From Ulota crispa (lineage: Eukaryota > Streptophyta > Bryopsida > Orthotrichales > Orthotrichaceae): 64,000 nucleotides of DNA. The stretch covers positions 21,796,539 through 21,860,538 of the forward strand of contig OY987248.1 of assembly GCA_963920765.1 (NCBI GenBank), written 5' to 3'. The first letter of the stretch is position 1, and the number at the start of each line of letters is the position of its first letter. The position numbers and the translations under genes are program-made. Shown one piece after another: positions 8,674 through 59,909 of the stretch. The notes under the pieces were generated by a model that was not told where the DNA came from, did not search any database, and was given only the letters and a program-made list of their open reading frames with translations.

Positions 8674-9282
8674 CTATCGACCTCGGCTGAGGGCCTTCTC
8701 AGCGTCCTTGACCTCATCCAGGATGCGGTCCTTGCGCTTGGCGGGGATGGGATACGCGGCGCCGAAGCTCACGAAGTGGCCGCTGATGGCGTTGATGACG
8801 GAGTAAATGTTGCTGAACGATGGCTTACCCGCCACCTTCTTGGCCTTCCGGTACTTGGCCACCCATTCGTTGCCTGCCTGCCGCAGCTTGGCCACCGCCG
8901 CTGCCTTGTTAGGATCCGTCTTCTCCAATGCCAGCGTCGTTCGCACCTGATCGATCACTTCGCTGGTTTCGCGCTTGTAATCTTCGTCCGCATCCGCCCG
9001 TGCGCCTGCCACAGCGCCGAATGTGGACACCAGCAATGTAGCCACGGAGAGCTGGCGGCGAGACATCACAGGAGCGTCGGAGGGATCAAATGCGGAGGCG
9101 GAGCAGGACAATCCCAGCGAGGCAGCAGCAGCGTGGCGCTGCACGGGGCATGGGGCGGCCGCATTGCGCATTGCCCCTGAAACAGAAGAAGAGCTAGAAT
9201 TGGAGAGCAAAGAAGCGTGAGGAGGGGTGAGAGAGCAGGGCGAGTGGTGGAAGACCGAAGAGAGGTGCAATGCGGACGCCAT
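8674..9282 (-). CDS. PSB27: PSB27, photosystem II assembly/repair lumenal protein
   Basis: Single-exon gene of 202 residues from the ATG at 9282. An upstream in-frame ATG at 9402 would add 40 residues, but MASALHLSS is the more typical transit-peptide start. The first 70 residues are Ser/Ala-rich, as in a chloroplast transit peptide. Next comes SRRQLSVATLLVSTFGAVAG then ARA, a twin-arginine thylakoid signal with an AxA cleavage site. The mature part (about 100-202) shows family blocks DYKRETSEVIDQVRTTLAL, EWVAKYRKAKKVAGKPSF, NIYSVINAISGHFVSFG and PIPAKRKDRILDEVKDAEKA. Psb27 binds CP43 on the lumenal side during assembly and repair of photosystem II. It is divergent from the CCDC113-like gene, with start codons 600 bp apart. 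Confidence 0.93.
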   Translation of the reverse strand: MASALHLSSVFHHSPCSLTPPHASLLSNSSSSSVSGAMRNAAAPCPVQRHAAAASLGLSCSASAFDPSDAPVMSRRQLSVATLLVSTFGAVAGARADADEDYKRETSEVIDQVRTTLALEKTDPNKAAAVAKLRQAGNEWVAKYRKAKKVAGKPSFSNIYSVINAISGHFVSFGAAYPIPAKRKDRILDEVKDAEKALSRGR

Positions 9283-9881
9283 CGCTGGAGCTGCTGCTGC
9301 AGCAGAGATAAGATGGGCAGCGGGAGCTGCAAACGAGGGAGGAAAGGGAGAAAGTAGAATCCGGAGAGAAGAAGAGAGCTGAAAACGGCGACGGAGTGTC
9401 AAATCAAGAGCACGGCATTCTCAAGTCATGCGATCGGGCGTGGCGTAGCGTTGGCAGCGATTGTGGATGGGCGTGGCACAAGGACGGATTGCAAGGCACG
9501 CAGCGGTCGAAGAAAGCATCCCCTGAGCTTACCCCCTCGTGCCCCAGTGGCAGCAACGCACTGGTGCCTCGCTTGTGGATAAAAAGTCCATATCTCCTTC
9601 CACGGACGGACGTTCCCTCTCGTTCGTCCAAAATCTGTTTTCGTTCGTCCCCATGACCGTCGCCCCTGCCAGTTGGTTACTGGGCCGTCATTCCGAAATG
9701 GCCCTCCTGGTGCCGCGAGGCGTCCTCCTCTCTGCCTCGCCTCTGTCTGCCTTCCTCTTCTGATTGATGCTGTTCCTGTTTGCTGTCGCTCTCTGCCCTC
9801 GTTCACTTCGTGCGCGCTTGCCCTCTCCCATCTTCCGTTCTTTCCATCCATTGCGTGGTTGCAGTTTTAGCCCTCTCTCTC
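9283..9881. promoter_or_regulatory. Bidirectional promoter between PSB27 and the CCDC113-like gene
   Basis: A GC-rich interval of about 600 bp separates two divergent start codons and must hold both promoters and both 5' leaders. The part next to 9882 is pyrimidine-rich on the + strand, like the leaders of other genes in this window. No convincing TATA box was seen. Confidence 0.5.
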
Positions 9882-14950: not shown

Positions 14951-15127
14951 TAAGAGGAGATGACCACTTGTATCCCTAATAAGGCAACTTGCAAAGTTTA
15001 ATGCCAACCGATTACAATTCAAGGAACTTACAAAAGCAATAAAATAAGCTATGATGACAAGAATATAGCTTCTAGAGGGTTCAAAGACCCCTTCAAGAAT
15101 GACTTATTTGAAAGGGAAGGTAAATGT

Positions 15128-15994
15128 ATAGTATCAGTTAGTAATGATAGGTAGAATCTATTTTGGCATTTCAAAGAAGTTTGTATAACAAAAAATGTAA
15201 AGGTCATTTTAACCTCATATTTTTGGTATGTGATTCTCATGCAATTCCAATCAACCATACCATATCTTGGTTACTAAAAATAAAAATCCTATTTTTGTTA
15301 AGTTTTTTTGTGTCAAAATTGATGTTTTACAAGAAAGTTGATTAAAACACATTGGTGATGAATTTTTGAGATTTGATTGCATGGATGTGTAGGAGACATT
15401 CATGCCCACACCTCTCCTCCTAACAAACATCTTCAAAAAGGTCAAAATTCCTTCAATGGAGACTTGAACATTGGTGTAATCATGACCAAATTTAGTAAAA
15501 TAGGTCATTCTTTATGGTAATTAAATTGTGCTATTTGACTCATACATTATGATTAAATCTATACCATGGAACATGATGATGTGTTTATTTAGTCAAAAAC
15601 TAATTAAAAAATGGAGATATTTGTTTTATTAAATTTGGTCATGATCATTGCAACATTCAAACCTCTATTGACAAAATTTTGAACTTTTTGAAGATGTTTG
15701 TTAGAAGAGGTGTGGGCATGAATGTCTCGTACACATCCATGCAATCAAATCTCAAAAATTCATCACCAATGTGTTTTAATCAACTTTCTTGTAAAACCGC
15801 AATTTTGACACAAAGAACTTAACAAAAATAGGATTTTATTTTTAGTAACCAAGATTTGATATGGTTTGATTGGGATTGCATGAGAATCACATACCAAAAA
15901 TATGAGGTTAAAATGACCTCTACATTTATTGTTATACAAACTTCTTTGAAATGCCAAAACAAATTCTACCAATCATTACTAACTGGTATTGTAC
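15128..15994. mobile_element. Long foldback element, about 870 bp
   Basis: Two arms of about 360 bp (roughly 15128-15505 and 15630-15994) are reverse complements at about 90 percent by eye, around a spacer of about 125 bp. Outer ends pair agtatcagttagtaatga with its complement at 15970-15987. Open frames seen on both strands are mirror images of one arm and not genes. The class is unknown and no target duplication was assigned. Confidence 0.75.
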
Positions 15995-16015
15995 AAGCAG
16001 ACACCGCTAGAACTG

Positions 16016-16065
16016 GTTGCTTTTCATCCCGATTTGAGCGGTTGCTTTTCATCCGGATTTGAGCG
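16016..16065. repeat. 25-bp tandem duplication
   Basis: The unit gttgcttttcatcc followed by sgatttgagcg occurs twice back to back, at 16016-16040 and 16041-16065, with one difference (c to g). Confidence 0.85.
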
Positions 16066-17459
16066 GGGCCTGGACACTTGGAGGGTTGCAGGAGATGCTC
16101 TCACACAGTTAGTAGGGTTCCAACTTTCAGTTCAAATGAGCACCATGAGTGACATGTTGTTGACCTGGTAACGAATTGTTGTAGTATTTAAATGGGCATG
16201 TTGCATTGGAATTGATAGAACAGCACAAGAAGTCAATTGCACCATGCAACCGACTATCCTAAACCTACTCTAAAGGTCGTCCCTTAAATGGAAAATCAGT
16301 TGGACTGGAGCAATTCACGAGGAGCCAATTGCAAATACAATTGCACGTGAATGCAGATCGAATACGCACTCTCCATACTACGAGTCCTATTTAACGGTAC
16401 ATGAACAAGAACAACCAATGACTCTAAATCATGTTGCAAGCGTCCCAGCTGCAACGTACAAGGCACACAACTCATGTTTTCAGCCTCCTTTTTCCGGCAA
16501 CTTGGGATCATAGTGTCTTTCCAGTACTCCAGCAAAGCTCTTGGAAGTGTAAAATAAGATGTATTGACACAAAACGTTTCAACGATACACATTCCATAAC
16601 AAATGAAAGGTGTGCAATGTCTTCTATCAGTCTTTACTGCCCAAAGTTCATCTCTGAATACCTGCACATAACCAAATATTGTATTTATTAAAGATTATTA
16701 ATAAAGAGCAACCCAGAATAAACTCAAGCTCAGTTGGCAAGAGCCAACGAAACTATGCAGCGTTTCAATACGATGAGTAAAAAAATCTAGAGCACCAACT
16801 GGTGAAGAAGAATATGAGGGCAAATTAGCAACACAAATCCCGACAAACCTGCAACATGAAATCTGAAGCTAACAAACCTGCGTGGTTTACTCTGACGATG
16901 TCCAAACTCGTCAGGGCCAAGTTCTGCACAAGAAGACAAAGATTGTAAAGATCCATCGAGCTCCTAAAATTAAATTTGAGAAATGCACGTGTTGAGAATA
17001 CAGCATCAGTGTCCCAAGAAGTCAACGGACTTGTTCAAATTTTGCGTTTTCCCCTGATACTGAAAGAAACAGAACCTTCGACGTCCTTCAGTATCCTTTT
17101 TATCAACTTCCACCCACATACATTGACGGAAATTCAAATGTTGAGGCGGCATAATGACCTTGATTGGGAGGCGGTTTCCACAGTCCACTTGGCTTTGAAC
17201 CATTTCTGTGAATACATCAAACAAGATTCCACACATTACAACAAGTAGTTGAGGTAGTCCGACGCAAGTAACCAGGGCTGACAATTAGTATCAGCCCCTC
17301 TGTCATCGAGGAATAAATTCACTATCAATGACAAAAAGTCTATTTGACCTAATTGAAATCACGTGTTCAACAGCATGTAATGAAACATCTGAAGTAATTG
17401 GATCAGGACCTAATTAACCCCCTACATGATTGGTTCAAGGAGCTTGCTCAAAAATAAAA
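16066..17459. other. Downstream region of the MLN51 gene
   Basis: Lies after the proposed MLN51 stop on the minus strand. It may contain 3' UTR or further 3' exons if the GTCAGT within the last exon is used as a donor. None of the minus-strand frames resembles known MLN51 C-termini. Confidence 0.4.
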
Positions 17460-20400
17460 CTATATGATATTCTCAAACATAGCAACTGACCCCGTGGGAC
17501 GGAAGGAGGGCGGCTGTGGGGCTGGCTGGCTGAAATACATTGGTGAAGGTGTGCCCTCCATGGTCATGTAAGGTGTAGCATAACCAGCACCTATTGTGCC
17601 ACCTCCTGCCAGTACTGGTATCCTGTTCAAATTTGAGGCCGCCAGAAGGTCAGTTATAAGAAATTAATCTGTCATCACCAACACTGTGACTATAGATTTT
17701 GGATTTGTAAACCATAGGTTAGTCTAGTTACCTAAAATCAACACATGATGAAGAAAAGAGGTGCGAAGTTGAAATGTACCAAGTTACTTCGGAGTTGGGA
17801 AACCCGTATTGCGGTTGGCCAGAATAATTTGGCATGGCCATGCCCACAGCTGGTAGAGGTATGCCTGCAGGTGGATGACCTCCATATTGAACAGCAACTA
17901 CAAAAACATCACACAGTATTATCACTCAGAACCTACACGTCAAGACTTTGGTTTTCGACCTGATGGTAGTAAGTGACAAAGCGGTGAACACATATGTTAT
18001 GCAAATTCAACAATATATTATACATGCATTCGATGATGATAGTTCACTGATGAGTATAAACCACAATATGAGTTGGAATTGGAAACAACAGTTTAATAGC
18101 CAGATATCCAGATACTAACCAGGTCCAACAGCAGGGATCGAAGGAGCAAACCCTGGTTCCACCTTCTGTACACCATTATTAATTCCGGTCGAAGTGCCTC
18201 CGTGGTAAACAAACGGTCCACCCCTTCCTCCCATCACCTGGGTATTCCCCCCTCTAACTCCTCTACCCCCAGTACTTCTTGACCTAGCAGGTTGCACAGA
18301 CGGCCCTAAATTAGCTGGAGTAGAACCGGCTGAAACGTGAGCAGTTGCGCTAGGACCTTGTGCTTCTTGGGCATGTGCTTGTTGTGACTGAGGCTGCACT
18401 GAAGGCAAAGGAGGAGGTTGTCCTTGACTGCTACTGCTACTGCTTCTGGCAACTGTTGATACTGCAGAGAAAATTTCAACGGACACTCAGGACCGGCTAA
18501 TCATTACTCCAATGACCAGAGTATGGTTCCTAGTTTCTAACCCCTTGGGTGTCTTAGCACTACGGATACCCACACAAAACATGATCACATAATGCTGAAA
18601 AGTAAATAACCCAGAAGAGGGTGCAAAATAATTGCAATCTGACTATACATAAAGGCCGAAATTCACATCGTTTTGGCTGATGTCAGAACGGGATCCAAGT
18701 CCGATGAACAACGAATAGCTACACTTCCATCGCTTCCTATTGATTATTAAGGCAACGATTCTAGGATGTGACTTGGTAATACAGCGATGTAGTAAAACCA
18801 ATAAATATTCATAAAACGCGCTATATTTATTTGATAAGAAATCCACCACCATAAAGTGCTGCTTGCTGATCGATTATGAAAGAACTACACACAGATACAG
18901 TTTTTCAGCTCAAGCCAATATTTTACAGACTATATGCCTCTTAAAGGTCTCACGTATATAAATTCGTATCAACCTTCCAGATTCCACGAGAAAGATAGTT
19001 TGAAAAAATACTTTTATGCCTAATGTATTGAACCCACATATCATGTAGTTGAAGCATGTTCCTCACCTGTCTGAGCTGTAGATGATATGACTGGCTGCTG
19101 GGATTGGGTACTGCTCTGTGTTCCTCCGACTTGCAAACCCCTTCCAAAGCCGCCAGATTTGGCGACAAACACTTGAGATCCTGATTTCATCCCTCGATCT
19201 CTTCCTTTAGTGCTTCGATTGATGTTCGCCTGACTGGACTCCGATCCCTCAACTGGTTTTTGTTGCAAAGCGCTTGAAGGAAAAAAAGGTGGCGACGCAG
19301 AGTTCAGCGAACCAGCACCAACTTTTCGAGGAGGAGCTGCGTACTCATGCTTTAAGCTTGCATCCTGTCCCTCCATATTGTTGCTCACGGCACGGTCTTG
19401 GGTTCCTTTGGCTGTTAAAGAACCTGACTCTTGTTGGATTCTGCTGTGCTCGCCTCCTTCGCTTCTTGAGGGGCCACCCTTTCCACGCCCTCGCCTACCA
19501 CGATTTAGGTTTAACTCCTCTGAATCACTGGCAAGCTTACCTACCCATCCTCTGTGTCGATCCCCATTGATACGTCCTCTGCCTCGACTTCTACCCCTTC
19601 CACCTCTGAAAGATCCCTCGTCCCTAAAACTATCATCCCGCAGATTGAGTTCTTCAAATAAATCATGTACCCAGGGCTTCTCATCCTTGGCTTCCCAGAG
19701 TTTCCTGCTGCCTCCCACGCCCCGCCTGCATATTTCATCCGATTAGGCATTCCCTCAAACAGAGGAAAATGTGCACAATGCAATACCAATACTGCAGGCG
19801 ACGAAAAATTCCCCTACAATAGAGTTACTCGAATAGCCACCACGAAAAATATCCGTCAAAACCCTTGTTATCCCACTATTCGTCTGCAGACAAGAAATCA
19901 CAGCTACCTACATTTCATCGACCCGGTCTTTTCCATAAAAAAAACTGAAGCTGGAAACTTGTGCATTAAACTTTCCTTACATCGTCTAGCCATGCTATAG
20001 TTTTGAGATCAATGTATAAGGGAAGAGGCGACTCGCAGATAACTCCAAATAGCGAATCACACATAGCCAGAATACAGAGGATTATTCTGTTGATGCCTAT
20101 GATTTAAATGCAGTCCATGCAGACAAGAATAAGAGGTGCTAGCGTCAGGCACGACTCTGGCGGAATAAGATATCCCACCCTTAGAAAATGCAATTTATAC
20201 ACTCTGGTACCGAAAACTTTATGATTTTGAATTGGCGAATTGCTGCTCAGATTGGTTCTGAACTGACTTGGTACTCTCGTGAGTTAATGTTCAGCAATAA
20301 CAATGAAAAGAGAGACATCGAGAATAACCAGGTTATAGTGCTTGCTTCAATCTAAAATTTACCTGGGACGAGCTCCCGCGACTCCGCGAAAACGATCGTC

Positions 20401-20871
20401 GTGCATGTAGAACGCCCCTGCGGTAGGAACAACGAAAGGCTCTGCCTCTTTCTTTTCCTCGTCCTGGCCCTCGACGCCGTCGATGGCGTCTGCGGCAGCA
20501 ATGCCTTGCGGACCATCCTCGGGGTCGGCACTCTTCCGGCTACCGTCTTCCTGATGCAAACCCTCGTGGTCGTCCTCTTCGTCACTGACTAAGCGGCGAC
20601 GTCGCGGCAAGGCGGCACCGGCCTCTTCCTCGCCATCAGGGGGCGTGCCTTCACCGTCGACCTCGTCGTCGGAGAAAGAATGGGGCGAGGGGTCGTCGTC
20701 GTCGTCGTCGTCATCATCGTCATCATCGGCGGAGGAAACGGCGTCCAGCGGCGCCTCGCGTTCTTCGTCATCACTAGCTTGGCGGCGCCGCAAGGCCAGA
20801 GCGGACGTGCCATCGCTGTCGCTGTCGTACTCGCCCTCCTCTAAGCCAGACTCGGAGAGCGCAGTGGCCAT
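17460..20871 (-). CDS. MLN51: MLN51/CASC3 (Barentsz) exon junction complex protein, 5 exons
   Basis: Exons: 20871-20363, 19725-19067, 18461-18120, 17897-17780, 17622-17460. They total 1791 nt, giving 596 residues. The N-terminus is acidic with a 12-Asp run at residues 49-60. The Btz domain (about 146-200) reads FVVPTAGAFYMHDDRF, then RKLWEAKDEKPWVHDLFEEL after the intron. This domain binds eIF4AIII in the exon junction complex and stabilises it on spliced mRNA. The middle is RG-rich (GGRGRSRGRGR) with Gln/Ser/Pro-rich disorder. The C-terminal exons carry the plant-conserved block PQYGFPNSEVTW joined to IPVLAGGG, which fixed the exon 4 donor (TG|GTACAT). The stop at 17460 is the simplest end; the extreme C-terminus is least certain. 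Confidence 0.88.
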
Positions 20872-21624
20872 GAGGAGGCCCACGAGGAGGCACACTAGGC
20901 AACAGGAGGGGCAACAGCAAAGGTGAGGATGATAAAGGCAGAATAAAGGAGAACCACGTGAGAGAGCAGGAGCGGAACGAGAAGGAGCAAGGAGTGAGAG
21001 CGCGGTCGCATTACAAACGAAGGGCAGACCAGGAAACGAAGAAGTGACAAGACGGCGAACACAACGACGACGACGATGGAAAAAGATAGTAAATGATCCG
21101 GGGTGAAGAAGACAAAAAAAAAAATCCTAACTTACTGAGGGTGAGGCGAAGAACAACAACAACAACATCGGAGTCAGCAGAAACATAACATCGACAGAAA
21201 GACCGACATAGAAGGGGAGAGAGGACCGAGGAACCGGAATGATGGCGCTTGGGGTACCGTAGGAGGCTTCAGAGCTAGAGAGAGAAAGAGGAATGCACTG
21301 TACGGACTCTTTTAGGGTTTAGAGTTTGGGGAGACGGGATGGAAAGAAACTGAACAAGACGAAGGAAAAGGTAAAAGCATGTGTAGGACCTGGAAGAACT
21401 GACCGCTAGTTCAATGCTAGTTGATTGAAATGAGAAAAAATCGTCTGCAATTTGTAAACTTTGGCTAAAAATCGGTGAAAAATTTTTAAAAGAATTATTT
21501 GTAGTATGAAATATAGAAAATAACTGCAAGAGCTCCTTGGTAAACCGGTTCAATATAGGAATGGAAGGAAATCTACCAAAAAATCTCAAATATTTCCCGG
21601 ACCCTTGTAGGACGTTGGAAAGAG
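20872..21624 (-). promoter_or_regulatory. 5' leader and promoter of MLN51, with a telobox-like motif
   Basis: GC-rich, purine-rich on the + strand (pyrimidine-rich on the transcribed strand), then AT-rich from about 21420. TTTAGGGTTT at 21311-21320 is the complement of the plant telobox AAACCCTAAA, about 440 bp upstream of the start codon. The transcription start was not determined. Confidence 0.45.
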
Positions 21625-21628
21625 TTAA

Positions 21629-21854
21629 CCCTTAAAGGACCATAGGGCATAGTATATACGATGCTGTATAATTGGTATTTGCTACTAGTAAGAAGTTTAA
21701 ATTTGAGATCTCAAATAGATCACTAGAACTGCTTTGATCTATTCTCCAACTTCTTTGTTGATCTCAAATGCAGTAAAGGTGTAAATCTATTCTAAATACA
21801 AGAAAAACACCTCGTATTCTACTAGTTGCAGCGGCACGCCGTGTCCATTAGGGG
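21629..21854 (+). mobile_element. TTAA element, class S (copy 1)
   Basis: 226 bp flanked by TTAA at 21625-21628 and 21855-21858. Left end CCCTTAAAGGACCATAGGGC; the right end is the complement of CCCCTAATGGACACGG. Internal hallmark of the class: ttctccaacttctttgttga (about 21750). Non-coding. Other S copies lie at 22954, 24703, 27577 (reverse) and 59670. Confidence 0.85.
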
Positions 21855-22007
21855 TTAAACCCAGTTACGTTGCCGAAGTGAATTAAAAATATTAAAAAAA
21901 CTTATCAATGATAGCTACCAAATGAAATGGCAATTCTAGCGATTGTTTGTACAAAAGTACTTTAGGAACGGTTTTCTACATCACAAATCACCACTTATTT
22001 TACTAAC

Positions 22008-22949
22008 CCTTAACTCGTATAAGACCATAGTTCCTGCGGAGGACAAATGGGATTTTGGGCATGTACTTATGGCTAACCTACTTTGTGCAATTTTTTGAAA
22101 CTTTCATGGAAGATGGGAAATTCAAAGAGCTACGCGAGCTTCTAATTTCTTCTTCATTATGACATTTGACAAAGAAGTTATGCAAGAATTTATGAAAATT
22201 TGGGGAGGATTGCCCGTTTGGGCACCTCAAAAAATTTTATAAAAATTCACATTCATTTAAATAAAAATTTGAAATGGGTTCTTTAGATTATTTTGTACAT
22301 GAGAAGCTTTGACTTGTTAAATTTCAAGCAATGAGATGAAAGCTATGAGGGGTTTTTGTTTGCAGGTAATTATGGATTCTCTACTCTAAAATAAACTTTG
22401 AAGTCCTTTATTTTACTCAATTTTCAATACTTTGGAAAAGTAACTAAACCAAAGGAAGTAGATTGTTTATTACAACATTATCACCATTAGGATTTGCATT
22501 ATTCATTTTAGTAGTTAGATTCTTATCAATACAGTGTTTTGACTCATTCTCTACTTCTTTTTACTTAACACTTTTTTCCCATGTGTTGTGTTGTTCCAAT
22601 TGATTTGAAAATTCTCCCACGTATACCTAACTTGATCTCCTACATGGTATATTAAAAGTACAACTTTGGGTAGAGCAATTTTTTTCATGTAAGAGTGGTC
22701 AAAAGCTTTTGAAATTTACAGATAGCAGGGGAAAAAAACTTTTCCCTTCACTTCAAACGTAAATATCTCCTGGCTCTTCTCCATCTAGAATGACCTAATT
22801 TTTTCTTGTGAGTACCTCTTCTAGTCTAAGGGCAAGCTCCTATGATTGGATTTCAAAAAAAAAAAAAAAAAACCCCTACCTTCTTACTCATCCCCTAGGA
22901 GTGGCAATTTTCAATGATTTTGGCAAAAAAAGGCTTGGTTCTTTAGGTG
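22008..22949 (+). mobile_element. TTAA element, class L (copy 1), decayed left end
   Basis: About 940 bp. The left end is mutated (ctaaccctta), but the subterminal block ggacaaatgggattttgggc matches the L copy at 48664. The right end, ggttctttaggtgttat, runs into the next S element at a mutated junction TTAT. Only short, unrelated open frames. Confidence 0.75.
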
Positions 22950-22953
22950 TTAT

Positions 22954-23179
22954 CCCTTAAATGACCATAGGACAAAGTATATATGATGTTGTAAAATTGG
23001 CATTTGCTACCAATAAGACGTTTTGATTTGGGATATCCAATATCTCACCAAAATTGCTTTGATTTATTCTCCAACTTCTTTGTTGATCTCAAATGTAGTA
23101 GAGGTGTGAATCTCTTCCAAATTCAAGAAAAACACCTTGTATTGTACTAGACGCTAGGGCACGCTCAAACATTTAGGGG
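22954..23179 (+). mobile_element. TTAA element, class S (copy 2)
   Basis: 226 bp, the same length as the copy at 21629 and with the same internal block. It abuts an L element on the left and shares the intact TTAA at 23180-23183 with the M element on the right. Confidence 0.85.
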
Positions 23180-23183
23180 TTAA

Positions 23184-23585
23184 CCCCTAAACGACCACGG
23201 GGAACCATAGATTCTTGGCCGTATCATAATTCTACGATGACTCAAATCTGGGTTTTGTTCATTTCTTGGCGCGGATTGTGAATCTTAGTGGCTAAACAAG
23301 ATCGCTTGCTCCTAGCGCTCCGGCACCGTGTTCATTTCGGGAATCCACCACAGGGTTTTGTAAGTTGCAGATATGCTCCAGCTACGTATTTGTAGCCCAA
23401 CTCTAGTACAAACGCTTTGCAAAGTCAGAAAAACAATCATAGATACATGCCAAACATTGCAAAAGGTGGAGAAGAACAGCAATACACAGCCCTCAAAAAT
23501 CCAAGCGAAACCCAAAACAACAACACCTTTGAAGACAAGAAAACACCATATTTTGGCCACAACGGCACGCTGTGTTGTTTAGGAG
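23184..23585 (+). mobile_element. TTAA element, class M, 402 bp
   Basis: Bounded by TTAA at 23180-23183 and 23586-23589. Ends CCCCTAAACGACCACGG and the complement of CTCCTAAACAACACAGC. The interior is unlike the S and L classes, and this is the only M copy in the window. Open frames on both strands at 23312-23582 look coincidental. Confidence 0.75.
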
Positions 23586-23589
23586 TTAA

Positions 23590-24698
23590 CCCCTAAAAAC
23601 CAAGCCTTTTTTTCTATGAAAGTCACTAAAGACTGCCACTTTGAGGGGAATGAGTAGAAAAGTAGGAAATAAAGTTAGTTTTGCAAATCCTCTAGTAGGA
23701 TCTTGCCTTAGACTAGAAGAGGTACTTGTGGGAAAAAAATCAGGTCATGCCAGACAAAGAGGAGGGAGATATTTACATCTGAAGTGAAAAGAAAAGTTAT
23801 TTTCCATGCTGTCCAAAAAATCCAAAAGCCTTTGACCACTCTTACATGAAAAAAATTGCTCTACACAAAGTTGAGGCTTATTTTTTCCATGTAGAAGACC
23901 AAGTTAGGTATGTGTGGAAGAATTTTCAAATCAATTGGAACTACAGTAGTGCCTCTTTAAGATGAACCTTTATAAAAAAAAACGCTTAGCTAAGATGGAG
24001 ATGAATGTCCTTGGCGGTTGGGGAGCTACAAAAGATGTGTTTGGTTACAATGAATGCTTTCCTTACACAAAATGAATATGCTGTCCAGATACCTTCATCT
24101 TATCGAGGCACCACGGTACACAACACATGGGAAAAAAGTAGTAAGTAAAAAGAAGTAGAGAATGAGTCAAAACACTATATTGATAAGAATCTAATTATTA
24201 AAATGAAATATGCAAATTCCAATGGTTATAATGTTGTAATAAATAATCTACTTCCTTATGTTTAGTTTTTTTTCCAAAGTATTGAAAATTGTGGAAAATA
24301 AAGGATTTCAAAGTTTATTTTAGTGTAGAGGATCCATAACTGCCCACAAACTAAGACATCTCATAACTTTCATCTCACTGATTGAAATTGAATGATTCAA
24401 AATTTCCCACATACAAAAAAATCTAAAGAACCAATTTCAGATTTTTATTTTTAAAAAATACAAATAATAAAGAAGTTTTTGGGTTGTCCAAATTGCCCTT
24501 CCTCCTCCAAGTTGCAGAAACTCTTGCATAATTTCTTTGATTGTCAAATGTCAAAATGAAGAAAAAATTAGATGCTTGTGTAGGTCTTGGAATTTCCCAC
24601 CTTCAATAAAAGTTTTTAAAAATCACAAAAACTAGATTAGCTACAGGTACATGCCCAAAATCCATTTGCCCCCTTGGGGACAATTGGGCCTTTAGGGG
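23590..24698 (-). mobile_element. TTAA element, class L (copy 2), reverse orientation
   Basis: About 1.1 kb. It is the reverse complement of the L element at 22008-22949 with indels, so the two flank S and M as a large inverted repeat. The ends are cccctaaaaaccaagcc and ttgggcctttagggg. The right junction is TTAG (24699-24702), a one-base change from TTAA, and it is shared with the next S element. Confidence 0.8.
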
Positions 24699-24702
24699 TT
24701 AG

Positions 24703-24912
24703 ACAACCATGGGGCATAGTACATACGCTACCGTATAATTGGCATTTGCTACCAATAAGAAGTTCAAATTTAGAATCTCAAGTAGCTCACTAGAACCACT
24801 TTGATCTATTCTCCAACTTCTTTGTTGGTCTCAAGTGTAGTAAAGGTGTAAATCTTCCAAATACAAGAAAAACTCCTCATATTAAATTGGTTGGAGGGGC
24901 ACGTTCAAATGT
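24703..24912 (+). mobile_element. TTAA element, class S (copy 3), 3' end eroded
   Basis: Matches the S class from gacaaccatggggcatag through ttctccaacttctttgttgg to gggcacgttcaaatg, then loses similarity before the expected right terminus. It is the last element of the five-member train. Confidence 0.8.
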
Positions 24913-24943
24913 AATCCTTGAACTTTGGAGCGTGCTGTTGCAT

Positions 24944-25268
24944 GGGAAAATTTCATGGATACACCTAAAATTTGCAATACTTACATAGATACCCTTGCTT
25001 TTTCAGAAAATACACAAATACCCTTGGACCAATATTTTTTAGGCATTTGTTTTGTTGTGCATGCCACTTCCTTTCTTTCTTTATGCATACATTGCTTCTT
25101 CTTTGTTTCAATACATTTCCTTCTTCAAAATTAGTCATGAAGGAAGTACAAACTCACAACAAATAAATTCCTAAGATTTATAGTCCAAGGATATTTGTAT
25201 ATTTTTTTGAAAAATAGGAGTATCTATGTAAATATTGCAAACTTCAGGGGTATCCATGAAATTTTCCC
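24944..25268. mobile_element. Second copy of the GGGAAAATTTC MITE
   Basis: TIR GGGAAAATTTCATGGATACA at the left and the complement of GGGAAAATTTCATGGATACC at the right. It is the same family as 13859-14179, including the internal aatacccttggaccaat block. No 9-bp duplication is visible at this copy. Confidence 0.8.
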
Positions 25269-25586
25269 ATATTTTTAGTAATTTTTTTTTTTTTTCCTTT
25301 TGGTTGAATCTATTCAACATCTTCCAAAAAACAAACAATTCCTTAAAAATTATGTGCTTTTTTTAATGAATTGAAACAAAGTGAACAACTAAGGTTTTAT
25401 TGGCAAGCTCCCTATTTTGAAATTATGTTCATTGTTACTTCTTTGTTGAACATAAATTAGATTAAAGGGGTCTTTTCTTCAAGATTTGATTATAAACCAT
25501 AGTAGTCTATGGAGTTTTTTAATCTAAGTTTTAAAGAAGTTCTACATTCTCATTTGATAGATACATTACAAAGTTATGCATGCTTC
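25269..25586. other. AT-rich intergenic DNA
   Basis: No gene or defined element recognised. Confidence 0.5.
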
Positions 25587-25730
25587 CACTAGAAGAAAAA
25601 TGTGTTCTAAATGATTGGTTCACAACAATTGCAAATGTCTTAAACAATTATAATTGAGTCATCACATACTTGTTTAAGTCATTTGTAGTCATTGAAAACT
25701 AATCTTGTAGGACACATTTTTCTTCTAGTG
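25587..25730. mobile_element. CACTA-like MITE, 144 bp
   Basis: Ends CACTAGAAGAAAAATGTGTT and the complement of CACTAGAAGAAAAATGTGTC, flanked by TTC on both sides (25584-25586 and 25731-25733). A 3-bp duplication with a CACTA terminus is the CACTA/CMC signature. Confidence 0.82.
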
Positions 25731-26906
25731 TTCTTGGAAATGGGCCTTGTAGTCTTGTTTTGAAGTGTAGATGATTTTTTTAGACATTGGGAACTCTTAT
25801 AAACTGATTTTATTTGCACCCTTCAAGTTCATTACATGATTGTAAAAACTGTAAAATATCCTCTAGGACATTTCTTTTTCAATTAACAAAACCCATTTTT
25901 TACCAAGTCATGTACCTCAAACAATATTTGCTTCCATCTTCAAACAAAGAATTTTTTATAGTTGGAATTCATATGGATAACACAAGAAATATTTGCTCCT
26001 CAAATTCTAACAACCCTCGTAACAACCTCCACAATATGAAAAGGATCTAAAGTCCAATTTTGAGAACATTGAAATAACATATACCAATAATTATTGCAAT
26101 TTCCAAAGCTACTTTGGGTCACTCTTTTTCTTTTTCTAGATATTTGTGCATAATTGAGTATTTCTTGCTTTGTTGTCCCATATGCGATATAGTTTTTCCT
26201 TCTTCTTCCAAGCAAACTCAATATTGGTTTTTTTTTAACCCTTTAAAAAAAAATCTCTACTATTGAGAACTGTAGTTTAAAATCTTCCACTACACAGTTT
26301 TCAATGCTATTTGAGGCAATGAAAAACATAATTCATGTCCCATTTTAGAGAGCAAATGAGAAGAAGTACGAAAAGAATTCATCTGCAGAAGTAATTTATT
26401 TTAACATAGAAAAAATAGTACATTGTATGATTTTATTAGTATTATACATAAGACATTGTTGTGGATAAAAAGACATTTGAGTCGATTCCCAAAATAATCG
26501 TTACTTCTTTTTGTGAATCACCTTATATTTAAATTAACAAAAAATAAAAAATGAATATACCTTGAAGGGGTTTTGGGCTTTTGTCTTGGGTATTGTACAA
26601 TATATGTAACCAAAATTAATATAGTTTATCAACCTATTTGAATGGTTTTCCCAAATCTTAGAGATAGTGAGCATGAGCCCCCATCAAGGATAGGGGTTCA
26701 AGCCTATAAAGCCTAAACATGTGGGCTGAAGGTTAGACCCCAATTAGAGAGGATTCTGGACTCTCAGCCGGCATGGCAAACGTCAGAGGGATTTAGGATA
26801 CCCTCTAGTTGCTCCCATGATAACTGGCTCCAACTAAAGATGTTGGACTTCATTTAGCACAAAAGATTGTGGCCCTCTATGTCATGAAAGCAACTCCCCC
26901 AGGGCT
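25731..26906. other. AT-rich intergenic DNA with a possible SINE-like segment
   Basis: Mostly AT-rich without genes. At about 26655-26710 the block cttagagatagtgagcatga is followed by GGTTCAAGCC (26695-26704), which resembles an RNA polymerase III B box. A related block occurs at about 58681-58733. The evidence for a SINE is weak, because no poly(A) tail or target duplication was identified. Confidence 0.35.
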
Positions 26907-26910
26907 TTAA

Positions 26911-28027
26911 CCATTTAGAGACCACATACAATTTCATAAAATCCACTAAAAACAAGGGCAGTGAACTTAGATGTGCAGTTGAATCAAATATGGATTCAAT
27001 TTGAATAATCCAACCGTATAAATGTAAATAATTTGTTTTTGTGATGTACTAAAATTTCAACTAGATCCATTGTTGGAAGTGAAATATCATATTAATGGAG
27101 TGAGCCGTATGTAAAAAATCTCTAGTTTTCCATACTTGCATGGTTTTGAATGTTAATGTTTTTGCTTGAGAAGAGCCTTATATTCCTAAAAATTGAGGTT
27201 TCCCACCTTTTCAATAAGACTAGTTTCACACAAAACAGATAAAAATAGCAATCACAAGGTGTTGCTAAGTGGACAAAAGAGGTAAAAAATCCCACTCTAT
27301 TTGCTACTCTCAAATGGTTCTACAAGAAATTTGAGAAATGCCATGGAAAATCCGATTGATGAAAACAACCAAGAATTGGCCTTGAATGTAGGATGACAAA
27401 TTTCAAAAATGAAATGACAGCATCATTTTAGTAGATCTTCAAACACTACAATTATACAACTACCATATAGAGAAACACTACATGTATCTTTCTTAAGCAA
27501 TTTAAATATTTTTAGAACCGTGAAATTGAAGTTTGACATTCTTTTTGAATATTTGATGTATATTTTGCTGCCTTAACCCTTAAACATTTGAGCATGCCCC
27601 TACGACCAATACAATTTGAGGTTTTTTTCTTGTATTTGGAATGGTTTCACACCGTTACTACATTTGAGATTAATGAAGAAGTTGGAATATCATTTAACGT
27701 GGTTCTAGTGAGCTATTTGAGATCCCAAATTAAAATTTCTTGTTGGTAGCAAATGATAATTATACGACAACATATATACTATGCCCTATGATCATGTAAG
27801 GGATTTTAAACCAAAAATGGATACGTGTTTGAAGCCATGTTATATGACACCATTATTTGTCAGCTCACATATCCAATTTCACTATTATTTTTTCAGATGG
27901 ATGCAAAATTCTTGTAATTGCATGCGTTCTTTAAAACCAAATTTCAAATTGTTTGAGTGATTTTACTCTATAGACCAAAATGTACTCTCTGCAATCAAAT
28001 GTATTTGCTTGTTTGGTCCTTGAAGGG
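26911..28027 (-). mobile_element. TTAA element, class K (copy 1), interrupted by an S element
   Basis: Flanked by TTAA at 26907-26910 and 28028-28031. Ends CCATTTAGAGACCACATAC and the complement of CCCTTCAAGGACCAAAC. It matches the K copy at 54690-55598 in reverse orientation along its whole length, for example caatcacaaggtgt at about 27250. At 27573 the match breaks for an S element and resumes at about 27810 (aaaatggatacgtgttt). Removing the insertion leaves about 880 bp. Its right end lies about 770 bp upstream of the HLB1 start codon. Confidence 0.85.
27577..27805 (-). mobile_element. TTAA element, class S (copy 4), nested in K
   Basis: 229 bp, reverse orientation relative to the other S copies, flanked by TTAA at 27573-27576 and 27806-27809. 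The other K copy carries no S element at the matching place, so this is a younger insertion that shows the TTAA target duplication directly. Confidence 0.88.
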
Positions 28028-28031
28028 TTAA

Positions 28032-28804
28032 ATACACCGAAAATCCAAGACAGACTTCGAGCTTTTTGCCGCATTGGCGTGCCTGTCGCTGCCGCTGCCA
28101 TTGCCGCTGCCGTTGCCGCTGCCGCTGGGTAGGGTCGGGGATGGTTCCCTTCCCTGGCAGGCCTTTCCGCCCGCTCACCCTTGGCTTTCACGGGATGCCT
28201 TCGGCTGCATGCCTCTCTCGCAGGTCGCGGGCTCGTACTTGCTTCTCCTCGTCGCCCTGCTCTTTCCCCGCTTTGCTTTAAGTTACCTTGCCTGCCAGGC
28301 CTTGCAGTCAGGTGCGTGCTCCGATCTCCATCGCCGCTGCCTGTCAAAGGTAGTGTTTATTTCCGCTTTCCTCTCTCCCTTCCCCTACGTTGCTGTCCGT
28401 TGTTTTTTCTCCTCCTCCCCTCTCTCTCTGTTTCCCTTGCAGTAGTTTCTGTCTCGACCATCTTCCATCTATCTCGATCCGATCGCTTCCCTTCGTTCAT
28501 TCTCCTTCGCGATCTTTCTCGCTTTGTCTCTTCCGCCTCTCTCCGCTTCTCCCCTCCGCCACTAGTTGACTCTTCTTCTCTATTTGTGCCTGTCACGATC
28601 GCTCTCCCTGCTCCTGCCTCCCGTCGTCACCTATTTACCCAGACTGGATACTCTCGATGGTCTGCGTCTGCCATGGCTGCATTCATATTGTAGCTCAGGA
28701 TTCCTCCTCTTCCAATTAGGTTACGCATTTCACCCTTTGCAACCCTAACTATCTTGGCTTAGCTCTCACGAGGCCAGGGTTACTACTATCCGGATTTTGT
28801 AGCT
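28032..28804 (+). promoter_or_regulatory. Promoter and pyrimidine-rich 5' leader of HLB1
   Basis: Composition shifts from AT-rich to GC-rich at about 28060, with a TGCCGC-type hexanucleotide run at 28084-28127 and a long C/T-rich leader to about 28650. AACCCTAA (28741-28748) is a telobox-like core near the start codon at 28805. A leader intron is possible but cannot be proved. Confidence 0.45.
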
Positions 28805-31800
28805 ATGGCAGCCGACGGGGAGAACATGACCAACCCAGATGCATCAGATTTTGTGCAGGAAGTCACGCCCTTCCCTCTGGCGCAAGATCTATTGCTCCTC
28901 TCAAAGCAGTCGCTGCCTGAAAATGTTCTGCTGCAGTCAGCATTGAGCGTTACCAGCAAGTCAAACCAAGACGAAGATAGTATTCACGAATTGGTCTCTC
29001 TGGCTCCCGAACATCCGTTTCAACCCTTTATACAAGGTTCGGTAGTGAATGGGGTGGAGTTTTTGGAAGGATTTCAACGTCCTGCCACGGATAGTGTTGA
29101 TGACGAAAGTGAATCTGGTCCTTCTCTAGAGCGCGCACTTTCAGAGAATTCAAAATCTGAGAGTGCTGGCTTAGAGGACGTTTCAGAGAAGCGAGTGGGC
29201 GAGAAAATTGCACTGTTTGAAGGACTGTCTGTACTGCAAGGAGATGACAATGAAGAAGAGGACGCCCTGGGTGAAATAGATGTTTTAGACAGCCAAGATG
29301 ACCGTCAGAATGAGTCTAAGACAATTCTTGGAGTTGAACTTCCCGACGTTCTTCTAAGTGATGCGGTGCCCGGAAATTCTGAGGTTGGCGTGCTGATTGA
29401 TGAAGAGGAACATTTAACAGGACGCACCGCCGTTGCTTCAGCGGAGGATGTTCTATTCGAGGGGCTTAGTCTCGTAGATCCCTCCAGCGAAGCTCCTGCA
29501 AGCGGGACTGTCGGTCCTGAATTGGATGATGTATCTCTGATCGGGAGACTTGAGGAAGCAGCTGACAAGTCTACGGGAGCAGAGGAGGTTGAAAGCGTGG
29601 CGATACGTGAAAGCTCGAATAAAGCGTCCGAAGAAAGCCAAGCATCACAAACGTATCATACAGATATTACAAGTAACAACGGAACACATAAAATCGAAAC
29701 ATTAGGAGAAATATTTTCGAAAGATCATAAAGAAAAAGTGTCACAAGAAGTTGGAAAGGTGACAGGTGAAGAGATCGGCAGTAGCCAGATCATTTCAAGT
29801 GACCATGTCCAAATCGCATCCGACTCCATGGGTAGCACGTCTAAGGCGTACCAAGGCGTTGGGGATTTCGTACCGCCGAGAACTTTGAAAGCAGCATCTG
29901 TGGCCAATTCTGACGGGTATGTGGTCACCTTGATTATGGACTTTTTCCTTCTTTCAATTAATCAATCATGCTGATAACTACTTACTAGGCGTAGGTGATG
30001 TGAATTTTGTTGGCAAAACTCTCGTGTGTGTGTACTGAAATGTTCTATTTTCTCTCACATCGACTCCCTGTAGATCACATATGATGCTTCAAGTTCCTGT
30101 GGAATTCTAAAATACTGGACGACAATGCCATGAATAATGAACTTTTTGGGTACCAAATCTAGTCCTCTATGGTTAAACTTATGTTGACTTGCTGGCTCAT
30201 TTTTTATCGTGACTATGTTTCAGTTGTATGGAATGGATGTGCTTTTCTATTTTGTAAATTTCTGTCACTTTATCTGGTCCTTTTGGAAGTCATTATATTA
30301 AGTAAGGATTGGTTGCACCTTACATACTCCTTTTTCGTTGTTTCAAGTGTGAGGTTGCTCTGATAATCTGACATTAAAAGTTTAATGTCAAGTTATATAC
30401 GAGCAGGTGAAACCCTTGAACCTAGGCTTTCGTCTGTAATCTTTGTTTCACTGTTCTTGGAGCAGCTGACCTAATCCTCGTCATTTGCAGAAATGACGTT
30501 GTGGTTCCAAGGTCATCCACCAGCGGCACAAATATAGTTGGAGACATTCTATACAACATAGCTGTTGGGGATGAGGAAGGACGCTCCCGACAACGCATTC
30601 TGGCTTTTGCGGCTAAGCGGTATGCAGACAGTTAGGATGCAAACTTAGATAACGAAGTCAAACGTGCATGACAATGCTATTATTAATGCCCTGCATCAGA
30701 AAATTATTTATGATGTGAAAGGAGGTAATCATGCGTTTTATTATTGCTTCACAAGGGAGACAGTAGTATGCCTTGTGCCGTTGAGCGCAAATATGGCAGT
30801 TCTACTTGTTCATTGCTTAGGTTAAATCACATGAAACCACCTTATCTCATCCCCTTCCGCGAAAGCCTTCAACAGCACCGTGGCCGCTCCCTTGGAGGCC
30901 ATTGTCCGGGAGATCTCCGTGTAATATGAAAAACAAATAACCTTCCCAGTAGCGTAGATGTAAGGTTCAGTGTGCACTCTATGAGGCTGCTACCTGCTAA
31001 ATCTGAAGATGTACCTGAGCTGTCTTCATCATCCTACACAGGTATGCAGCCAACGTGGAGAGGAATCCTGAGGATCATGATGCGCTTTACAACTGGGCAT
31101 TGGTGCTTCAGGTGCGCCTCTGGCCACATTTACTTCCTTGGTGCCTTGGAATATATTATGTATCAGTCGTTATGTTTGTTGTGTATAATATTTTGGAAAA
31201 CAAGCCCTTTAGTTCTACGCTTTGCTTCCTCAACGTCATTCTATTCTTGCTTTGACCTCCCTATTTGAGCTTTGTACACTCACAAATATATACTTAACTT
31301 TGCAGGAGAGTGCAGATAACGCAGGACCAGAGGTAGGTTCTCCAGGGAAGGATGTATTGCTGGAGGAAGCTTGCAAGAAATATGACGCTGCTACTCAGTT
31401 GTGTCCCACCTTACATGAGGTGCTTTTTTTGTTACCTGGTGTAATATTGAAAATTGGAGTTTCTTTCCCGTTTTCTGCGCTGATATTGTCTGATATCATG
31501 ATTTGCTGCTCCGACCGTGATGAAGCAGGTCTTCTGCTCTGGATCTAGTAGTAACAAGTGGACTTGAATGAGGTCCTCTGTGTTGGGTTATGTTCCGACA
31601 CTTAATGCTTCTTTTCTTCCAGGCTTATTACAATTGGGCCATAGCAATATCCGATCGGGCTAAGATTAGGGGTCGCACAAAGGAAGCCGAAGATCTCTGG
31701 AAACAGGTTGGCGGTCAAGTCCTAGCCCATGAATCTATTTGCTTATCATTGAAGACGTTCTCTTATTGTGTTGAAACATGGATTATCGACCGCTTGTGGG

Positions 31801-34800
31801 TATGTTGTATTTCTGTATTGGATGGTTTCTCTGAGGAGCATCTGACCACTTTTTTTTTTGAGTTCCAAGTTTCATTTTTGCTTCAGAGTTTATCTTTAGA
31901 ATTTGTTGTGCAGATGCTATTGGCAAGCACTCGGTAATTAAAATCATCATGAGCTCAGCCAAGCTTATTTTATAAGTACTGGCCAGCATCCTTGTCATGC
32001 TCTGTGCTTTTTCGTCAGAGAGTGCCTTTTTTTTCAAGATAACGCATAACAACTGAATTGTTATATAGGCTTGTGACAGATATGATCGAGCTGTGCAATT
32101 GAATTGGAACAGTCCGCAGGTATTTCCGATTGATCCGCTATATCTGGCTGCTGTAGCTTTACCTTCGACTTTATAGATGATATATATTCTTTCCACTTGT
32201 TTTTTTGTTCCAGTGGAGGTTGATTGATAATCGTTAGTGCATCCATTCTCATGCTTGATAGATGAATGTATTTTTTTTTTAATTGTGCTTCATGTCTTAC
32301 ACGCAACTGGGTTTTTCTGTCTCTAATGTGTGAAAGATATATCTTTCATTTGCAAAGCACCAGGCCATGATTGCCATCGTGACTTGCAAATTCATTAGCG
32401 CAATCTGTTTACCTCTACTTCCACTTACATACGGGTTTTGTTTGACAGGCCTTGAATAACTGGGGCCTTGCATTACAGGTTACACCTCCACCTGGGATTT
32501 CTTAGTGTTCTACAGTCCATTGATGCTGCAAAGTTACTGAATGGTTCAAGATGCTGACCGTTGGAGATGTTGCTCAATGTGATTCTAATTCTGAATCATG
32601 TTCCTCCTGTTGGTTTTTAAGCTTGGAATTTTGAAATGCAGGAACTCGGAGCTATTGTTGCGTTGAAGGAAAAGCGTGCTATAGTCAAGAAAGCAATAAG
32701 AAAGGTAAGATCTATTAGTGCCTTTCAAAGCTTGAACTGCTGTTTTACATGAAGGCAGAGAGATGTCGGTTTTCTGGCACTGTGATTGACATAAAAACGA
32801 AAAATTGCCAACTACTGTCCAGTTTCGCGCTGCTATTCGACTCCGCTTCGACTTCCATCGTGCGGTTTACAACTTGGGAACGGTGTTGGTAAGTATGAAA
32901 CATCTCTGGTCGTTGTTTAATACTTTTTTGATGTTGCAAAAGCTTTTATGTAGTATGTTTTCTTTGTCTGCGATATCCTGAATCACTCATCTAGTGCTGC
33001 TGTCAATTTGGGCACTACTCAATATGAAATCACTGTCTTCTTTAAAGACGTTTTGCCGATGCGTTATTGGTTGCAATTTTGAGTTAGTTTTATCTGATAG
33101 CCTATATAGGCACATTAATACAATTTAGCAGCGCTTTACTACGCTCACATAAGTACCAGTGAAGGACGCGTGAGTTCTTGCGGGGACTGAATTTTTAAAG
33201 GAAATTATTCTCTGTGGTCTGCATAAATATGGTATGTAGCAAGGGCTAGTTTGTTCTTTAGGGGTCCATCGGGAATCACAAACCCTATGGAGCAAAGCAA
33301 ATAAGGGTTTTGATAGGTCTGGAATGGCCGTTTGGTAGTGTAGGCCTTTTTGCTCGGGATTGAATGTTTTTTTAATGAAAACGGAGTCCCCTAAGACTTT
33401 AGTCTCATTGGTGTTTGCTTATCATTTATGCAATGGTAAACCACAGTACAATCCTCCACTGAAGCATATCACTTATGCGGTATATTCTCCCTTGACAGTA
33501 TGGTTTGGGAGAGGACATCGCAAGGACTGGGCGAAAGTTGACATCGAAAGAACTTACACCAGCCGATTTGAACAGCTTGTCTGCCATCTATATCACTGCT
33601 GCGCATGCTCTGAAGCCTGACTATCCAGTAGGACCCTTTTCCTTTCACTCTCCACCTTCGGATTTTTCTTTCATTGACAACTCTGTTCTGTCCTGCAAAC
33701 ATTTGCCTTGATTATTCTTGTGGATAATTCTATAACCAAGCTAAAAGAAGCTTTTTGTTTAGCGTGGTCTGTTAGTAGGTATAGTGCATGCATGATTTTA
33801 TAAGTGAGTCTGTACAAGGTAAAAGAGATTAAGGAAGGCAAGGAATTGTATAAATGCAGGGATAAGTCTTGTTTCCCAAGTATTTGTTATGTGTTGAGAC
33901 TGAGTTCGAAACAGTATGAATCTTTGGCGTGACCACTTAACGTCCACACGTACTAGTCCCTCTCAAATATATTGCTAGATTAATTTTCCTGAATACTTCG
34001 TACTCACAGTTGATATACTGAGTGGGAAGTGTAGGTGTATCGCGGTGCTTTGCGGCTTGTGCGGAATTTTGTAAGAAATCTCAACTTTGCTTGTGTTATT
34101 GAAGTTTGAAGTGTTTCATGCAATTCGTGTTATTCCGGTCTATATGGGTGTCGCTTTGTTTGTCTCCTGCAGTTGCCGCTGCCTTACCTTCGAGCTGGAT
34201 GGTTGAGGATCCCACCAACTGGAGACTCTCTGGCTCCACACAGTGATTGGTTGCGGTTGTGGTTTGTTCTTGATCACGAAGCCCTTTATGAGGTAATTCA
34301 TAACTATACGATTACGGTCTCTGCTGGAATCTTGTTTGTGGTCTTACTGGATCAATGCTCAGATCACCTTTTTTTATTGAAGTCCATTCGTGCACCCAGC
34401 CCCACCTCTTCCCATCATTTTCCTACAAAAAATGCTCTTGAATAGGTGTTTGTTGTCCAGCTACGAGTTTTCCTTTGAATATGTATGCTTGCTGGGACAC
34501 CCGTGTGCAGATAGAAAAAGTTGACCGGAAGTTTCTTGCACATAGCTACTCAAGACGCTCTAGCACACTTACCTCGGAAAGCAATACTAGCAGCAGTTTT
34601 GCCTCAAGGCCATCAGTTTTAAGAATTGAGATGGAAGACATTTTGTGTCTGGCTCCAACGGCAGATCTTAGCCTCCCACCTGGGGGAGGTTTTTGCATTG
34701 ACACTGACGGTGGTCCACAATATCTGGTTTGTTTATTCTTATGAAGTCCACTTCCTTTTTCTTATTCTATCGAATCCTTATTCTAATTTGTTACCAATGC

Positions 34801-35160
34801 CTGACTATAATATCTGAAGAAGTAGTATGTGCTAGAAACGAGTCTGCATGGTTCTAACATTTTGACTCTTCACATTTGGGTCTAATTTTTGTGATCATGA
34901 ACCTTCCTAAACTTTTGAGATATATCCGTGCTTAGAAGACTATCTCTGCAAGTAGTATTTCACATTTAATTTTTTGCAGAATATCCATTGCTTGGTTTTT
35001 TCTTCAGATAGTAAGCAACAGATGTTGACAAGAGGATGACGGTGTGCAGATAGCAGATACGTGGGATAGCATGGATGCATGGGTGGATGCCATTCGGTTA
35101 GTGTACACAACATATGCACAGGGCAAAAGGGATGCCCTCGCCAACGTGCTAGTTGTCTGA
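28805..35160 (+). CDS. HLB1: HLB1-like TPR protein of the trans-Golgi/early endosome (13 exons)
   Basis: Exons: 28805-29916, 30491-30619, 31042-31111, 31306-31419, 31623-31706, 32069-32119, 32449-32478, 32642-32704, 32823-32888, 33499-33627, 34173-34292, 34511-34726, 35050-35160. Total 2295 nt, giving 764 residues. Residues 1-375 are acidic, Ser/Glu-rich and probably disordered. Then TPR units follow: [63 protein letters not shown] and [20 protein letters not shown]. The C-terminal part (about 590-764) looks like a PH-type fold ([32 protein letters not shown]). Arabidopsis HLB1 (At5g41950) has this layout and acts at the trans-Golgi network and early endosome with actin. One exon is only 30 nt. 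Confidence 0.85.
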
Positions 35161-48230: not shown

Positions 48231-48663
48231 AACATTAGTTATACTTGGCTTGGGGATAGAGGTACATGATAAGATTGTTATTACTCAATTTGTTTATTGC
48301 AAGAATATTTTTGTTACCTTTGTTGGTACAACAGATACATAAACTATACCAAATAGTGCATTTAGGTTGTCTTATCAATTAGGTTGCCTTACCTTGGAAA
48401 GTTACCTCATGACACGTGGTTTGACCACTTAGGGGTGCATGTAACTCTTTAGATGTTAGGATTTTTTATGCTTTGCGTCATGGACAGAGCTACTTTGTTA
48501 TTTTGCAATTGTGTTGTTATTGCCAAGGCCTTTAAAAGTTGCTTATTGCAATAATTATTGCTGAAAATTACTATAGCAATTGTAACTATTTAAATAGTGT
48601 AAAATTTCAAAAAATTAGTGTGGAGCAACCTAAATGCACTATTTGGTGTAGTTTAACCCTTAA

Positions 48664-49545: not shown

Positions 49546-49549
49546 TTAA

Positions 49550-50190: not shown

Positions 50191-50334
50191 TTAATTATAA
50201 TTAGCAACAAAGGAAACACTGTGTGTAGTGTGTATTTTGAAGTGGCTAGGGTAATGCAGAGTGGACGGGAGTAGGATCGAGAAGAGCATCAGCGACGAAG
50301 GCAAGCAAGGGATTAAGTTAGGGCAAGGAAAGTG

Positions 50335-52491: not shown

Positions 52492-52495
52492 TTAA

Positions 52496-53223: not shown

Positions 53224-53227
53224 TTAA

Positions 53228-59665: not shown

Positions 59666-59669
59666 TTAA

Positions 59670-59905: not shown

Positions 59906-59909
59906 TTAA

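Follow-up and report, generated by a model that had tools for sequence, protein, structure and literature searches.

Serial insertion as a probable origin of a train of TTAA-flanked elements in Ulota crispa

Introduction

Miniature inverted-repeat transposable elements (MITEs) of rice and maize were reportedly found by Jiang and Wessler in 2001 to have inserted into and beside other MITEs; the target sites in these nested MITEs are TA or TWA. In accounts of the rice and maize cases, insertion into elements is described as commoner than adjacent insertion (PMC5907723). In coral, one MITE of the CMITE family is described as inserted in a TTAA of another repeat (CMITE-IN; PMC2872659). For plants, PiggyBac is listed among the MITE superfamilies of angiosperms (PMC10004981), and in a fern it is recorded as one of the minor classes of repeats (PMC6890710). 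The main text of a MITE survey of 207 plant genomes mentions neither piggyBac nor TTAA (PMC12550479). MITE arrays and nested MITEs are already known, and the TTAA/piggyBac kind of MITE is already in print for plants. Here we describe a stretch of 64,000 nucleotides from Ulota crispa, called the window below (C7:21796539-21860538, where C7 is one of the 157 contigs of a 274.8-Mb assembly), in which short TTAA-flanked elements of unrelated sequence follow one another as a train from about 22.0 to 24.9 kb.

Results

The initial annotation read the train as five elements (L, S, M, L inverted, and S) abutting through single tetranucleotides, with a lone S just upstream. The tetranucleotides that it quoted, TTAT at 22950, TTAA at 23180, TTAA at 23586 and TTAG at 24699, were all present in place; the lone S element, S1 (21629-21854, plus strand; 21625-21858 including both TTAAs), proved to be complete in the S alignment and bordered by intact TTAAs at 21625 and 21855. 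Within the train, the 936-bp L element (22014-22949, plus strand) was joined to S2 (22954-23179, plus strand), which was 82% identical to S1, through the common junction TTAT, a mutated TTAA at 22950-22953. S2 and M (23184-23585, plus strand) had in common the TTAA at 23180-23183, which together with its surroundings formed an exact 20-base TTTAGGGGTTAACCCCTAAA, and M and L' had in common the TTAA at 23586-23589. L' (23590-24698, minus strand) was an inverted copy of L with a smaller insert at 23942-24118; three ungapped arm pairs in 22050-22742 and 23792-24663 were 82-84% complementary. Over their aligned parts S1, S2 and S3, the rightmost S, were 78-85% identical to one another, and a second copy of M, 78% identical, abutted another element in locus L011. 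The insert in L' had inverted ends (TACAGTAGTGCCTC... and ...GAGGCACCACGGTA) and is probably a TA-flanked element of another kind.

The left end of S3 (24703-24912, plus strand) was the informative feature. Whereas the start of S1 reads TTAACCC-TTAA-AGGACCATAGGG, S3 opened at S base 8, with TTAG at 24699-24702 followed by ACAACCATGGGG, and exactly the first 7 bases were absent. Directly 5' of the TTAA to the left of L (22010-22013) stood a stub, CTAACCC (22003-22009, plus strand), which fits the missing part of S3, being a mutated outer TTAA plus the first three S3 bases; in the alignment, stub and S3 body together were in register with the starts of S1 and S2. In the fetched DNA we counted 3403 TTAA site-sides, and just 30 had TTAACCC before them when one mismatch was allowed. 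Because S3 lacked its first 7 bases and a matching stub preceded L, L-S2-M-L' would occupy the TTAA 7 bp inside the left end of S3, the TTAA at 22010-22013 being one copy of that inner TTAA and the TTAG at 24699-24702 the other, mutated copy. On this alignment we read the train not as five neighbors in a row but as a fifth unit that received the other four; the joining of four units by single tetranucleotides stands as originally described, and the rightmost S becomes a split recipient. It had also been suggested that the internal TTAA of CCCTTAAAGG ends provides a second self-target; this holds, and it is apparently what befell S3. The right end of S3 was degraded beyond about 24910, with no clear TTAA there. 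Shortly past it, at 24942-25270, two 88-bp arms, 85% complementary, lay 153 bp apart; this unrelated palindromic repeat may have removed the right end of S3.

A second nested case, with an uninterrupted relative for comparison, was found in the same window. K48 (48653-50195, minus strand) was interrupted, 7 bp in from its end, by X48 (48664-49545), the order being stub TTAACCC (48653-48659), TTAA at 48660, X48, TTAA at 49546 and the body of K48 to 50195. Comparison with K52 (52492-53228), an uninterrupted relative of K48, showed that the TTAA was duplicated around X48. Elsewhere in the genome, two units occupied one inner TTAA in locus L001, with the remainder of the split element on the far side, and in locus L002 it was an S copy whose inner TTAA had received a unit. 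Excision footprints were considered as another source of TTAACCC before an end, but in L001, L002, K48/X48 and S3 the rest of the split element is present beyond the inserted DNA, and we therefore rejected them there. In the fetched DNA, 4 TTAACCCTTAA sites were split and 17 unsplit, too few to decide, and three of the split ones lay in loci selected for their junctions; L045, which overlaps L044, was dropped from this count, and S3 fell outside it because its outer TTAA is mutated. At C2:10942747-10942793 the sequence TTTAGGGG-TTAA-GGG-TTAA-GGG-TTAA has the form of two 7-bp stubs in a row, which suggests that insertion inside ends took place repeatedly. In L034 (1406-2980) a 932-bp unit was apparently nested at an interior TTAA of a unit of the 650-bp family, the library match to which was broken at 551/542.

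Abutting units occurred at two further places in the window. A second train (58733-60779, plus strand) consisted of L-type, S, E60 and N640-type units with shared TTAAs at 59666 and 59907 and a degraded TATAA near 60138, and a reversed S beside a P element (27573-28032) formed a probable pair, the junction of which, near 27801, was degraded.

The ends of these elements shared the signal TTAA-CCCCTAAAKGMCCAAGG, a loose consensus of 125 ends (122 without places read twice) that were chosen on TTAACCC[C/T]TAAA, so that the first eight positions are selected; outside the selected positions, TTAA preceded CCCCTAAA[GTA]GNCCA in 24 of 29 ends. In the window, the end word TTAACCCCTAAA with up to two mismatches occurred 33 times, whereas 100 shuffles gave 7.6 on average and never more than 15. 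Genome-wide, this word had 30,972 exact copies (15,477 forward and 15,495 reverse), and its reversed control had 41 and 36. An exact double end, TTTAGGGGTTAACCCCTAAA, which is an end-TTAA-end junction, occurred 335 times in the 274.8 Mb and its reversed control not at all. When the 1.5 kb read from each of 30 sampled exact ends was searched for a partner end with at most two mismatches, one was found for 26, at 75-1448 bases (mean about 700); the nearest partners were exact for 14, had one mismatch for 8 and two mismatches for 4, and were not found for the remaining 4. Element lengths in the sample were about 71-1444 bp. From these values we would roughly estimate 15,000-35,000 elements in all, making up 4-8% of the genome. 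L had at least 44 genome matches, from 40 of 8664 candidates scored. The plant telomere word is TTTAGGG, and the element ends resemble it plus one extra G.

How often elements abut was compared with random expectation in two ways. Under a uniform null, about 132 exact junctions would be expected, from (30,972/2)^2 over some 1.8 million TTAAs (a total obtained from the density of 0.0066 in sampled DNA, itself enriched for these elements), and the 335 observed are a 2.5-fold excess. As a local control we used the 83 outward-facing exact pairs genome-wide that had 0-30 bp between their TTAAs. At gaps of 0-30 bp there were 30 TTAAs beside 102 non-abutting ends with at most one mismatch and 25 beside 69 exact ends; duplicates from the overlapping loci L029/L030, L035/L036, L039/L040 and L044/L045 were removed from this site-density count, and a few double counts remain in the 125-end consensus set, the TTAA-flank background and the facing-end counts. 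The resulting ratio of border to neighboring sites (335 x site density / 83) was 1.2 with the one-mismatch ends and 1.5 with exact ends, the like-for-like comparison, and it was unchanged without stub-type gaps (8 of 50 listed pairs of the 83) and gap-3 sites. In simulations the ratio was 0.84-1.16 without preference, with and without regional heterogeneity, and 2.9-4.0 at a threefold preference.

Among the first 100 listed of the 15,477 forward ends (1.48 Mb of C1), clustering was 1.5-1.7-fold at distances of 1-8 kb; at 0.3-1 kb it was 1.07-fold, and past 8 kb it was 1.0-fold. The excess of abutting elements over the uniform null could largely stem from clustering, and given this clustering and the local control we set it aside as evidence of preference. 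When facing elements were scored for use of the same or the next TTAA, loci L016-L045 gave 1 versus 4 distinct places (L044/L045 being one place), the outer ends of L001-L015 gave 2 versus 1, and L046-L050 gave none; outside the window, then, the two kinds of place were about equally numerous. Because the nearest host TTAAs were hit nearly as often per site, a strong preference of the system for its own bordering TTAAs, as proposed in the initial annotation, is not supported; a preference of up to about twofold is possible.

Among the 25 longest reading frames from L001-L050 no transposase was recognized by eye. Comparison with Pfam covered one gag-like frame in L046 and, of the eight frames in the window with 180 or more amino acids, five; no transposase family was among their matches. 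The window also contains a gene for Psb27 (photosystem II) at 8674-9402 and an adaptin-like gene.

Discussion

We propose, with a probability of about 0.75, that the train arose by serial insertion of non-autonomous TTAA elements into the border and inner TTAAs of older copies, and that their abundance is nearly enough to account for this without a strong preference for their own ends. The proposal starts from what was observed, namely the anatomy of the train, the TTAA duplication in the nested copy and the diversity of partners. The elements would be MITE-like, non-autonomous cut-and-paste DNA elements with one end signal that insert into TTAA and duplicate it. Each copy would add two fresh border TTAAs, and copies with CCCTTAA-type ends a third, 7 bp inside the end; because each copy brings its own TTAAs, later insertions would sometimes land in elements. 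For the train, we suggest that S3 inserted first and that the next insertion went into the TTAA inside its left end; further insertions into bordering TTAAs would have built L-S2-M-L', leaving the 7-bp stub of S3 on the far side. The order of insertion within the cassette, the action of a common TTAA-specific transposase, perhaps piggyBac-like, and the near-sufficiency of chance per TTAA combined with kilobase-scale clustering are what we infer. Serial insertion into the TTAAs bordering older elements had been suggested from the train alone, and it is supported by the variety of pairs at the junctions, described below, and by K48/X48 as compared with K52.

Had the abutting units always kept the same combination, they would be one larger composite, L-S-M-L' or L-S, moving as a block. 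L is followed by S in the same orientation twice in the window, at 22950 and 59666; among the L matches scored, five places in the genome have two L pieces within about 1.2 kb, and at one of them, on C7, the distance from one L copy to the other is about 237 bp, near the length of S, such that an adjacent L-S there is possible. The partners, however, varied. We compared 19 junctions, namely 15 of the 335 exact ones (L001-L015, the first on C1) and four in the window; their 38 arms fell into 18 families and yielded 17 distinct pairs, two of which, L-S being one, occurred twice, and therefore the abutting units do not appear, from their end sequences, to be one composite element. S was also found alone, as S1, and beside other units. 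In addition, the two L-S pairs look like different subfamilies, since L is 69-74% identical to the L-type unit of the 58.7-kb train and the S unit of that train is 73% identical to its nearest library copy, although the 81% identity of L' to the same L-type unit over 355 bases tempers this argument. We consider a composite very improbable. Local duplication of L and S was rejected on identities: L and L' are 77-82% identical, as compared to 81-85% between L and its best-scoring near-full genome copies. Arrays can also be imagined to arise from unequal exchange, replication slippage or assembly error instead of insertion, and the tandem arrays of coral CMITEs were ascribed to slippage (PMC2872659). 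Here, in contrast, the neighbors are unrelated in sequence, L and L' and the S copies diverge from one another about as much as from other copies, and the junctions are TTAA or one change away; K48/X48 has its uninterrupted relative in K52, and the mutated junctions TTAT and TTAG speak against a recent assembly join. To this origin we assign almost no weight.

Serial insertion might also be guided, with a transposase that favors TTAAs at or in its own ends so that arrays outgrow chance. The 2.5-fold excess over the uniform null would agree with such self-targeting, as would a local ratio that is above rather than below 1, the sharing of a TTAA with another element by 6 of 20 tested window ends, and the CCC or GGG gaps, like stubs of split ends, in the 8 listed close pairs mentioned above. 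Furthermore, a host-side C directly before TTAA, the context of the TTAA inside CCCTTAA ends, was enriched (32 of 83 ends, as against a fraction of 0.16 in 3396 TTAA flanks). On the other side, G beside TTAA, the context at every border, was depleted (8 of 83 against 0.18), the ratio falls short of that simulated for a threefold preference, and in L016-L045 the next TTAA was used at more places than the shared one. We therefore regard general self-targeting as unlikely. Note that enrichment of C and depletion of G would favor the inner CCC-TTAA, not the border GGGG-TTAA. The TTAA 7 bp inside CCCTTAA-type ends may thus be a favored self-target, older copies serving as landing sites for cassettes in split ends; we hold this to be doubtful but, if it were true, each cassette of unrelated units inside a split end would be marked by a 7-bp TTAACCC stub.

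Serial insertion driven mainly by abundance also has points against it. No transposase was seen in the frames compared from L001-L050 and the window. Sharing of TTAAs was more frequent in the window, with 6 of 20 tested ends, than in L016-L045 (2 of 59) and L046-L050 (0 of 17); likewise, leaving selected junctions aside, 2 of the 13 window TTAAs that border an end with at most one mismatch bordered two such ends, versus 1 of 100 in the other loci. With the element library, four clusters can be recognized in the window (the train, K48/X48, the pair at about 27.8 kb and the 58.7-60.8-kb train). The random regions L046-L050 had 24 library matches, small fragments included, in four of the regions; a border was clearly shared at two places (L047 near 892 and L048 near 6846) and doubtfully in L050 near 483. 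The site density behind the ratio of 1.2-1.5 was sampled and carries an error of about a quarter; the 1.07-fold clustering at 0.3-1 kb comes from 5 pairs, and the clustering as a whole from 1.48 Mb only. Exact ends sample younger copies, and older ones could behave differently. A local excess of junctions in the window remains.

As to class, we suggest that the elements behave as TTAA-targeting MITEs do, those of piggyBac being an example, and we do not file them as piggyBac members. They are short, have paired inverted ends and are present in high copy number, as MITEs are. Like piggyBac they have a TTAA target that is duplicated (24 of 29 ends followed TTAA, and X48 in K48 compared with K52 shows the duplication) and termini opening with CCC. 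The piggyBac hallmark terminus is CC[C/T]T (PMC2872659), to which the termini come near, but only the minority CCCT form fits it strictly; in the 122 selected ends the fourth base was C 107 times and T 15 times. The 3-bp TWA duplication of PIF/Harbinger (Tourist) elements does not agree with the 4-base spacer of GGGG-TTAA-CCCC at 335 places; 3-bp sharing would read GGGGTTTAACCCC. The termini, CCC, are also not the RR or AGGRR of Kolobok. With regard to Tc1/mariner (Stowaway) elements, the outer T and A were conserved (TTAA in 24 of 29), and TTAA is the better fit, but a TA duplication at a strict TTAA target would look identical in the sequence.

Arrays like L-S2-M-L' invite misreading, whether as composite elements or as something that proves self-targeting. 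Comparison of the border TTAA with the nearest host TTAA offers a local control that separates target preference from abundance, and the 7-bp stub is a clear sign of the recipient unit. This family, which has a TTAA target, CCC termini and some 31,000 exact ends in the 275-Mb genome, would be a useful case in which to seek a putative TTAA-specific plant transposase. We found no report of cassettes in a split end with a 7-bp stub in the open-licence literature, our searches not having been aimed at that exact wording.

Several described systems resemble this one in part. The nested MITEs of rice and maize likewise lie in and beside other MITEs, but their targets are not TTAA. In the SaTar arrays of guayule and rice, unrelated intact elements also form linear runs; these are, however, non-autonomous Mutator-like elements joined via microsatellites and described as uniformly non-nested, whereas here the joint is one TTAA and some units are nested (PMC5907723). 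Kolobok and T2-MITE elements have the TTAA target, but their ends are given as AGGRR or AG, unlike the CCC found here (PMC6004289). The coral CMITEs come close in being TTAA-flanked MITEs arranged in arrays, but each of those arrays repeats a single unit and was ascribed to slippage (PMC2872659), whereas the arrays described here consist of unrelated units with single shared TTAAs.

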